A stretch of DNA of 64,000 nucleotides. Origin: Methanocellales archaeon (GTDB taxonomy: Archaea; Halobacteriota; UBA148; JAUWXC01). Location of the stretch: the NCBI GenBank assembly GCA_030610945.1, contig JAUWQV010000003.1, forward strand, positions 62,001-126,000. The letters are read 5' to 3'. Positions 3,515 to 45,123 of the stretch are shown here, in pieces (position 1 is the stretch's first letter; each line of letters begins with the position of its first letter). The notes beneath the pieces are model-generated. The model made no database searches and had not been told where the DNA came from. It was given only the letters and a program-made list of their open reading frames with translations. The position numbers and the translations under genes are program-made.

Positions 3515-3655
3515 GCCGAGGTAGCCAAGTGGCCTAAGGCGCCGGTCTTGAACAACCCTTTTCCACTTCGTGCAAAAGCGTTGACGGAAAAATAAGAGGG
3601 TTAAAGCAAACCGGTGTTCCTCTGGAACGCAAGGGTTCAAATCCCTTCCTCGGCG
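3515..3655 (+). tRNA. tRNA-Ser (TGA), with ~56-nt intron (approx. 3553..3608) at 37/38
   Basis: GCCGAGG...CCTCGGC acceptor, CCGGT/ACCGG anticodon stem, loop CTTGAA|intron|A, long variable arm, GGTTCAAATCC T-arm. Confidence 0.9.
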
Positions 3656-6418: not shown

Positions 6419-7246
6419 ATGAGGAAATACGAGATGTGCAGCGGTAATCTGGCGATAATAATACCATCGTCCTTGACATCTGAAAGCAAGGATCAGCGAA
6501 TCAAGACATACAAGGTAGGACAAATCGCCAGGGCGGCGTCCATCTTCAGGGTGGACAGAATCAGCATATATAGAGACCCTGAATACGATGACAGCAAATT
6601 CATCGACCTGGTGCTTAGATACGCGGAAACGCCGCAATATCTGAGAAAACACCTCTTCCCCCTGATGGATGAGCTTAAGTATGCGGGAGTGATTCCGCCG
6701 CTACGGACACCGCATCATCCATTGCGTTCATCTCCTGAAGTAGGAGAATATCGAGAAGGAGTCGTGGTCGGATCTGACGAAGGCGCTTGGGTCGATATCG
6801 GCATAGAAGGCCCAGTTCCGTTGCGTGCTGACAGAACAGTGCACAAGGGAGAGCGCGTGACCGTCAGGATCTTTTCGCGAAGACCTCTGCAAGTCGAGCT
6901 GTGGGATAAAAATCGAATCCCCCAGTACTGGGGATACCAAACCGAGATTGCAGGAACGTTAGGAAAAACGCTCAAAGCACAGCCGCTGGTAATTGCAGCA
7001 TCGAAAAAAGGCAGTACCGTTGATGGGCAATTGCTAACAAAATTGCAAAAGGCACTGCAAAAAAGCGTCTCGGTCGCGTTTGGGTCTCCAGCAAGAGGAA
7101 TCGATGACATTCTGCACGAGGAAGGCTGCACGCTTTCCGACCTTGCAGATTACGTCATCAACACCATACCAAACCAGGGAACTGCCACCGTTAGAACAGA
7201 GGAAGCAGTATTCGCAACCCTGTCGATACTAAACATAGTCAGATAA
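6419..7246 (+). CDS. SPOUT-family putative RNA methyltransferase (DUF171), typical neighbour of rpl3
   Basis: AIIIPSSLTSESKDQRIKTYKVGQIARAASIFRVDRISIY; position upstream of uL3. Confidence 0.85.
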   Translation: MRKYEMCSGNLAIIIPSSLTSESKDQRIKTYKVGQIARAASIFRVDRISIYRDPEYDDSKFIDLVLRYAETPQYLRKHLFPLMDELKYAGVIPPLRTPHHPLRSSPEVGEYREGVVVGSDEGAWVDIGIEGPVPLRADRTVHKGERVTVRIFSRRPLQVELWDKNRIPQYWGYQTEIAGTLGKTLKAQPLVIAASKKGSTVDGQLLTKLQKALQKSVSVAFGSPARGIDDILHEEGCTLSDLADYVINTIPNQGTATVRTEEAVFATLSILNIVR

Positions 7247-25452: not shown

Positions 25453-25568
25453 GCGGGGGTTGCCAAGTCAGGTTAACAATCTTTTTGGTTGCAAAAAGGT
25501 TGACTAAAGGCGCAAGGTTGAGGGCCTTGTCCCGTAGGGGTTCGCGAGTTCAAATCTCGTCCCCCGCA
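25453..25568 (+). tRNA. tRNA-Leu (GAG) with ~30-nt D-loop insertion (putative non-canonical intron)
   Basis: GCGGGGG/CCCCCGC acceptor, CAAGG-TTGAGGG-CCTTG anticodon arm, variable arm, GCGAGTTCAAATCTCGT T-arm; D-arm GCC...GGC interrupted. Confidence 0.88.
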
Positions 25569-44395: not shown

Positions 44396-45076
44396 ATGGC
44401 AACGACGAAGAGAGTATATGAACGGCTTGCACCCGTTTATGACTTGGATGATGTGATGTTCGCTGGAGCCAAGCAGCACTGGCGCAAGAAAATTATAGAC
44501 ATACTGGATATCGAAAACGCCAAACTCGTTTTAGATATCACGACTGGTACCGGCAGGGCTGCGAAAATACTCTCAAAAAGAGTGAAGAACGGTCGGGTAA
44601 TAGCCGTAGATATATCCAAAAACATGCTTAAAATCGCCAGGATGAGAAATCATGGGAGAAATAATCTGCGCTTCATCTTGTGTGATGCTGCGCACCTGCC
44701 GCTTAAGGATGGAGTATTTGATGGCGTAAGCTGCATGTGTGGGATGGACACGGTTGATGAGCCGGGAGCGGTTCTCTCGGAAGTGGTGCGGGTTCTCAAA
44801 AACAAAGGAAGATTTGGCATGATGTACTTCAGGGAGTCAAAGGGGTGGCTCAGGCATCTGGATGCCATCCTTAAAAAATATTACAATTTGATATGGAACA
44901 CAGGGAATGTTGATATAGCATCCATGATTTCGGACCATCCTCTGAGGACAGTCAAGAAGCAGGACCTGCTAATTGCCGATGCCCTGGTTGTGGAAAAATG
45001 CCGGGAGCGCGATTCGAACGCGCGATCTTCAGATCTCTCACTTTTCCGTCAACGCCAAGGGGCTCCGCCCCTTTGA
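44396..45076 (+). CDS. Class I SAM-dependent methyltransferase (UbiE-like); C-terminus runs into antisense tRNA-Met
   Basis: VYERLAPVYDLDDVMFAG...LVLDITTGTGRAAKILSKRVKNGRVIAVDISKNML. Confidence 0.88.
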   Translation: MATTKRVYERLAPVYDLDDVMFAGAKQHWRKKIIDILDIENAKLVLDITTGTGRAAKILSKRVKNGRVIAVDISKNMLKIARMRNHGRNNLRFILCDAAHLPLKDGVFDGVSCMCGMDTVDEPGAVLSEVVRVLKNKGRFGMMYFRESKGWLRHLDAILKKYYNLIWNTGNVDIASMISDHPLRTVKKQDLLIADALVVEKCRERDSNARSSDLSLFRQRQGAPPL

Positions 45077-45123
45077 ACCCTAGGTTATGAGTCTGACGCC
45101 TTAACCACCTAGGCCACCCCGGC
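44999..45123 (-). tRNA. tRNA-Met (CAT, elongator-type), with ~51-nt intron (approx. 45035..45085)
   Basis: GCCGGGG/TCCCGGC acceptor, TCAGA-CTCATA|intron|A-TCTGA anticodon arm, GCGCGTTCGAATCGCGC T-arm. Confidence 0.9.

Follow-up and report, generated by a model that had tools for sequence, protein, structure and literature searches.

A 14-nt sequence, GCGTTGACGGAAAA, that recurs in the introns of two unrelated archaeal tRNA genes is the 3' half of a dispersed hairpin element, and not a tRNA-intron motif as such. We consider it probable that this element is a new archaeal variant of the intrastrand-triplex repeat, i.e., a dispersed, ultra-short, non-coding sequence that is gained and lost at new sites and seeds tRNA introns. 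Here, we describe the family and its contexts, the base pairing of its two variable positions, the covariation among three of its strands, its filled and empty sites, and its strand bias in tRNA genes.

The element in the window and its host genome

The window, the whole stretch of 64,000 nt that was analyzed, is part of a 992-kb draft archaeal genome, labeled G000. As the preliminary description had reported, the 14-mer is exact at 3578–3591 on the forward strand and at 45042–45055 on the reverse strand. Both sites lie in tRNA genes found by Rfam, and no third site in the window matches at two or fewer mismatches. Enrichment within the window alone is modest, with at least two matches at two or fewer mismatches in 5 of 100 shuffles. 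Elements of the family are about 27–60 nt long, non-coding, and carry no gene of their own. In type A, the layout is X-AACCCTTTT-loop-AAAAGCGTT-X'-ACGGAAAA, with X and X' left free in the search pattern. The features concerned, with the tail named as a putative third strand, are:

3515..3655, forward strand: tRNA-Ser(UGA) gene with a 56–58-nt anticodon-loop insertion (intron); Rfam tRNA, 48.6 bits; orthologues in congeners carry other inserts
3553..3591, forward strand: intact type A element in the Ser intron, from sequence, predicted hairpin, and family alignment
3553 and 3554–3562, forward strand: X (C3553) and 5' arm AACCCTTTT of the Ser element
3563–3573, forward strand: loop of the Ser element
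3574–3582, forward strand: 3' arm AAAAGCGTT of the Ser element
3583 and 3584–3591, forward strand: X' (G3583) and putative third strand ACGGAAAA of the Ser element
3578..3591, forward strand: 14-mer in the Ser intron, made up of the end of the 3' arm, X', and the putative third strand
25453..25568, forward strand: tRNA-Leu(GAG) with a D-loop insert
25477..25502, forward strand: hairpin CAATCTTTTTG-gttg-CAAAAAGGTTG in that insert (hairpin z = −4.5 as DNA)
44999..45123, reverse strand: tRNA-Met(CAU) gene; Rfam, 52.8 bits
45085–45035, reverse strand: tRNA-Met intron; canonical bulge-helix-bulge (CTCA/TGAG, bulges TAA/AGA), mature tRNA of 74 nt
45042..45055, reverse strand: 14-mer in the Met intron, the 3' half of a type A element whose 5' arm is replaced by CCTAGGGTTCAAAGGGGCGGAGCCCCTTG

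The 14-mer had been proposed as the shared unit; it is indeed shared exactly, but it is only part of a larger element, since the Ser copy adds a 5' arm, CAACCCTTTT, that was lost from the Met copy. At the same place in the Met intron, genome G004 carries an intact copy, CAACCCTTTccgctAAAGCGTTGACGGAAAA. The arms of the Ser copy are predicted to form a hairpin with a single C.C mismatch. A position near the 3' splice side had been claimed for both copies; this holds for the Met intron, with 7 nt between the end of the 14-mer and the predicted splice site, but not for the Ser intron. The Met insertion is an archaeal bulge-helix-bulge (BHB) intron, in that a BHB at its junctions leaves a normal mature tRNA, and a canonical BHB is also present in most other introns of the genome. 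In the Ser intron, a BHB search found no canonical solution in the anticodon loop, where a relaxed motif is possible. The likeness noted earlier between the D-loop insert of tRNA-Leu and the Ser intron is borne out by the hairpin at 25477–25502, in which the 3' arm and the Ser arm align; this hairpin is a diverged family element with a degraded third strand (ACTAAA). Elsewhere in the window, positions 6774–6867 (forward strand) hold an L4-Archaeoglobi ribosomal protein leader (Rfam RF03135, 48.8 bits).

Across the 992-kb genome, the exact 12-mer core GTTGACGGAAAA has three copies against about 0.12 expected, all of them in tRNA introns (Ser, Met, and Gln(CUG), the last in a gene that had been missed by Rfam). 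The 17-mer AAAGCGTTRACGGAAAA has four copies, in tRNA-Ser, tRNA-Gln, a CAU tRNA (Ile2), and the D-loop of tRNA-Leu(CAA), and the intron of the second CAU tRNA, like the D-loop insert of tRNA-Leu(CAA), contains a near-copy, GTTAACGGAAAA. Insertions are present in about 24 of the approximately 40 tRNA genes read in G000, and many of its tRNA introns have no such element. Two insertions of the latter kind, i.e., without the element, are a second one in the variable region of tRNA-Ala(GGC) (G000:C4:156548–156675) and a short one in the D-loop of tRNA-Ile(GAU) (G000:C4:156784–156875). The preliminary description held that a 14-mer frequent genome-wide, or absent from the same introns in sister genomes, would speak against its proposal; the 14-mer is infrequent genome-wide, and the sister genome G003 keeps it in the Met intron, whereas its Ser intron carries a different type of the same family.

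These other types share the type A plan with other arms and tails. Type B in G000 reads X-AAACTTTT..AAAAGTTT-X'-ATCAAAA and type B' reads X-AACCTTTT..AAAAGGTT-X'-ATCAAAA; together their pattern occurs at nine sites in G000, seven of which are tRNA introns. Type C reads X-AACCTTTTT..AAAAAGCTT-X'-ACCAAAAA. In Micrarchaeota (JACRGG010000036, locus L180), four 41-nt type A elements stand in tandem, separated by identical 9-nt spacers.

Pairing of X with X' and three-strand covariation

Although X and X' were left free in the search, they form a Watson-Crick pair in 114 of 118 distinct copies (97%), and all four pairs are used (A-T 36, C-G 30, T-A 28, and G-C 20). Orthologous Ser and Gln introns show the states T-A, T.G (a wobble), and C-G. 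The tail 3' of X' mirrors the purine arm in order. Most loci were retrieved without recourse to types B and C; in these two types, a T in the 5' arm goes with A in the tail 295 times and with G 8 times, and a C goes with A 6 times and with G 31 times (Fisher test, ~1e-30, ignoring the kinship of copies). Type A copies, beyond their fixed core, give the same picture (T with A 95, T with G 5, C with A 6, C with G 40; Fisher test, 7e-24, kinship of copies again ignored). The tail matches at 135 of 166 positions where the arm has a purine and at 8 of 38 where it has a pyrimidine (p = 3e-12, calculated as if copies were independent of kinship). Registers specific to lineages follow suit, e.g., CTTTCTTT with AAAGAAA, CTTTTCTT with AAAAGAA, CTCTTT with AGAAA (tRNA-Gly of G003), and CTTTTCTCTCTTT with GAAAAGAGAGAAA.

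This rule could be read as the tail being the parallel complement of the 5' arm. We rejected that reading in favor of the triplex rule because the tail does not follow the pyrimidines in the purine arm. The pattern suggests a purine-motif triplex, in which A lies on A-T and G on G-C, antiparallel to the purine strand, rather than mirror copying. In this model, a single strand would fold in the order pyrimidine arm, loop, purine arm, and purine third strand; the arms would form a hairpin, along which the tail would run back with a polarity opposite to that of the purine arm, the arrangement of a class II (purine-motif) intrastrand triplex. Core triplets number only 5–6 in many copies and up to about 13–14 in L173. 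We infer that the covariation reflects a physical triplex, and we place the triplex in single-stranded DNA because a passage of Holder et al. (PMC4666352) cites purine-motif triplexes as not forming in RNA. ANME-1 copies (L091 and L096) reach ACGGAAAAACGCTTCGCA, of which AAACGCTT can pair instead with AAGCGTTT in the second arm, and a folding program favors this alternative hairpin.

Contexts, empty sites, and distribution

Within tRNA genes, copies lie inside introns at the anticodon, D-loop, and T-arm, and the parts of these introns outside the element differ from tRNA to tRNA. Among 42 copies within recognized tRNA genes, 41 are in the sense orientation and one is antisense. Further copies occur in 16S and 23S rRNA genes, all of them sense, and in intergenic DNA. 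The RNase P RNA genes of two lineages (L078 in G004 and L172 in Yes46-13) carry an antisense type A element with similar flanks. In-frame copies are found in genes for an IS200-like Y1 transposase, Diphthamide_syn, DUF1616, CbiZ, and a family-4 glycosyltransferase (GT4). A conserved element bound by L7Ae or the splicing endonuclease, as had been suggested from the two introns, is unsupported; such a role does not agree with the antisense copies in RNase P RNA genes or with those in intergenic DNA and reading frames.

Some copies adjoin partial tRNA genes. In G000 (L059, C2 near 100750), an orphan 3' tRNA half (CGAGGGTTCAAATCCCGCTCGCCCGCA) beside tRNA-Leu(CAG), adjoining an antisense type B element, is a decayed or split tRNA. 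In Aenigmatarchaeota (L154, 5584–5708; L160; L155), 15-nt 5' tRNA fragments are each followed by the element and an inverted copy of the fragment, and these units stand in tandem immediately 5' of a complete tRNA gene. At L155, tandem repetition takes in both the element and its flank.

Comparison of close relatives reveals filled and empty sites, that is, gain or loss of the element. In tRNA-Asn, the intron of G003 measures 12 nt, and G000 carries this intron with a 27-nt type B' element nested in it. The tRNA-Arg(UCU) gene (TCT in DNA) is intronless in G003 and contains a 52-nt intron in G000. Two tRNA genes of G000 that lie 2.8 kb apart, Ile2 and Leu(CAA), share one identical insert of 80 nt or more. 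In 16S rRNA, a 45-nt type A insert occupies the CCTGTTAAGTCAGG hairpin loop in G001 and G004, and the site is empty in G000, G003, G005, and G009. At the D-loop site of tRNA-Leu(CAG), three congeners carry type A, type C, and inverted type C, respectively. In the ANME-1 gene for the Y1 transposase, one to three sites are filled in the homologues L091, L096, L100, and L126, with a net length difference of +36 to +45 nt that is always a multiple of three, and the homologue L386 is empty at all three. The common ancestry and mobility suggested in the preliminary description are supported, as the same element stands in introns of unrelated tRNAs and orthologous sites in congeners are filled, empty, or of another type.

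We scanned GTDB (85,462 species) with the exact pattern AACCCTTTT-N2-32-AAAAGCGTTNACGGAAAA, i.e., 9 + 17 fixed bases, and obtained at least 113 stretches; all the matches listed are archaeal, and the taxa among them include Methanophagales/ANME-1, Aenigmatarchaeota, Micrarchaeota, Diapherotrites, Parvarchaeota, Woesearchaeota, Altiarchaeota, Thermoplasmata, Methanocellales/Methanosarcinales, and others. One bearer's phylum is represented by 156 genomes, of which 28 contain the pattern, with about 70 matches, and a backward control pattern has zero matches in this set. Queries with a 41-nt ANME-1 copy gave no match in phages and, in plasmids, nothing beyond chance matches of 20 nt; 2.9 million viral contigs contain one match to the pattern. 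From the GTDB matches listed and these plasmid, phage, and viral searches, the element is likely restricted to archaea, and an origin carried by viruses was dropped given the single viral match and none in phages. The viral copy (L224; IMG/VR 3300009285_002298, 690–760) lies within a duplicated antisense tRNA 3' end, with its flank copied in inverted form.

Spread of the element and comparison with known systems

The mechanism we favor would begin with exposure of the sense strand during replication or transcription; the folded strand would then be copied by host replication, repair, or template switching, not by a dedicated transposase, and copies would come and go at new sites. Within tRNA genes, the element lies in introns that are cut out by the splicing endonuclease, and this location is probably why it is tolerated and accumulates there. 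Genes for 16S, 23S, and RNase P RNA hold it as an insert, and protein genes keep their reading frame around it. A Y1 transposase and a reverse transcriptase were considered and rejected as required mobilizers, as each is missing from most bearers: Y1_Tnp has no match in G003 and G004 (one contig each), G001, G063–G066, G069, G072–G074, and G076, and RVT_1 is present in only 4 of 26 bearers, being absent from most, including the single-contig G003 and G004. Two further ideas about the insertion itself were set aside. An inverted copy of the left flank as part of the insertion has few strong cases (L224, L154, and L160), and otherwise amounts to BHB pairing in tRNA genes; copying of X' from a target base is unsupported, since at two Y1 sites and at tRNA-Asn the insert itself contains X. 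Box C/D or another known RNA family was also considered, and Rfam gives only tRNA at the window sites.

The main rival is a role at the RNA level, on account of the 41:1 sense bias in tRNA genes, which a purely DNA-level element does not predict unless an extra step is added; RNA structure could thus be important. In the pre-tRNA or the excised intron, hairpin and tail would then make up a pseudoknot or a three-stranded RNA fold that is retained for a protein (splicing endonuclease, RtcB, or L7Ae) or for RNA stability. The uniformly sense rRNA copies and the wobble intermediates of X/X' in orthologous Ser and Gln introns fit this reading, but intergenic and reading-frame copies, the antisense copies in two RNase P genes, and the many introns of the same genome without the element do not, and the specificity of the third strand (G on C, A on U) is that of the purine-motif triplex, reported absent in RNA in the passage of PMC4666352 mentioned above. 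We regard the RNA-level role as unlikely. Transposition of whole introns between tRNA genes, the 14-mer being merely part of the moving intron, has a precedent in Thermoproteales, as cited in PMC4090602, and would account for the identical insert common to tRNA-Ile2 and tRNA-Leu(CAA) of G000, as well as for the tRNA-Arg intron of G000 that G003 lacks. However, the element is nested in an existing intron in tRNA-Asn, sits where no intron is needed (the 16S hairpin loop, RNase P, protein genes), and has ends that disagree with splice sites (tRNA-Asn, 16S, and Y1 genes), and intron sequence outside it differs among tRNAs, all of which makes this quite unlikely as a full account.

A REP/RAYT- or MITE-like palindrome moved in trans by a single-strand (Y1, IS200/IS605) transposase would agree with the imperfect hairpin, its conserved C.C mismatch, and the Y1 genes of several bearers. 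Nevertheless, the bearers without a Y1_Tnp match, among them G003 and G004, refute it as a general requirement, and the ANME-1 Y1 genes are themselves insertion targets; we judge it very improbable. Convergence of A/T-rich (poly-T/poly-A) hairpins in introns by chance is hardly credible. The element is short and A/T-rich, and in an unbiased hairpin scan of 513 kb of ANME-1 sequence, generic hairpins numbered 123 against 119 in the reversed control, with 10 full element matches, too sparse for statistics. Yet chance is not tenable given the empty backward control, and it is also contradicted by the presence in many phyla of an exact pattern with 9 + 17 fixed bases, by the near-complete X/X' pairing, and by the filled and empty sites. 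The archaeal intrastrand-triplex repeat is the reading we prefer. A bolder version, which we hold only tentatively and think doubtful, is that these are self-spreading intrastrand-triplex DNA elements that need neither transposase nor reverse transcriptase, move through host replication, transcription, or repair acting on the folded sense strand, and, in DPANN as in methane-cycling archaea, are a main source of short insertions that keep the frame of proteins, of inserts in rRNA, and of new introns in tRNA genes.

For the origin of archaeal tRNA introns, intron transposition was proposed earlier with its mechanism then unexplained, according to a passage of PMC4090602; Asgard genomes have been described in which 92–95% of tRNA genes carry introns (PMC11291895). 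With a defined unit of 27–60 nt that is nested in introns, inserted in rRNA and RNase P RNA, placed within proteins without a break of the frame, and matched by empty sites in close relatives, intron seeding becomes directly testable. The three-strand covariation under the purine-motif rule provides evolutionary evidence for intrastrand triplexes, whose role in the cell is unproven. The element also accounts for tRNA genes missed or misnamed by standard tools. In the part of the literature that our search covered, we found no description of this archaeal hairpin.

Among known systems, Rickettsia has palindromic repeats that insert into protein genes without disturbing the frame, and also into RNA genes. 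The Rickettsia palindromic elements are bacterial and about 100–150 bp long, and to our knowledge a third strand has never been described for them. In-frame insertion with an empty homologue is common to both, as seen in the Y1 gene, but at 27–60 nt the archaeal element falls short of their length. Yeast mitochondrial GC clusters (GC42) are likewise ultra-short palindromes with dynamic merging and shuffling and no known enzyme; unlike the archaeal element, they are G/C-rich and mitochondrial, insert at AG, and have no described third strand (PMC4478555). In Thermoproteales, similar introns occur in different tRNA genes through recent gain (Fujishima, 2010, as cited in PMC4090602), and the moving unit there is the intron, whereas here it is a hairpin within or outside introns.

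The closest counterparts are the class II intrastrand triplexes (BoxC/PIT elements/TM_ECO), with pyrimidine, purine, and third strand in this order on one strand (Holder et al., 2015, PMC4666352). The archaeal element has the same 5'-to-3' order of pyrimidine, purine, and purine, and its covariation, including the loss at pyrimidines, is that of an antiparallel third strand with A on A-T and G on G-C. It departs from the ITxF rules (stem of 6–15 nt, both loops of 1–6 nt) in its second loop of 7–8 nt (CGTT-X'-ACG), and may for this reason have escaped the search of Holder et al.; its A/T-rich consensus also departs from the TM_ECO/BoxC consensus, CCCTCNCCC-N3-6-GGGNGAGGG-N3-GGGNGAGGG. TM_ECO is G/C-rich and proteobacterial and was studied mainly in non-coding intergenic DNA (PMC4666352), whereas in the archaeal family the second loop itself pairs with the 5' arm, and the insertion sites are tRNA introns, rRNA, RNase P RNA, and reading frames. 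What the two have in common is the succession of pyrimidine arm, loop, purine arm, short loop, and purine third strand, together with dispersal as repeats that are present or absent between close relatives.
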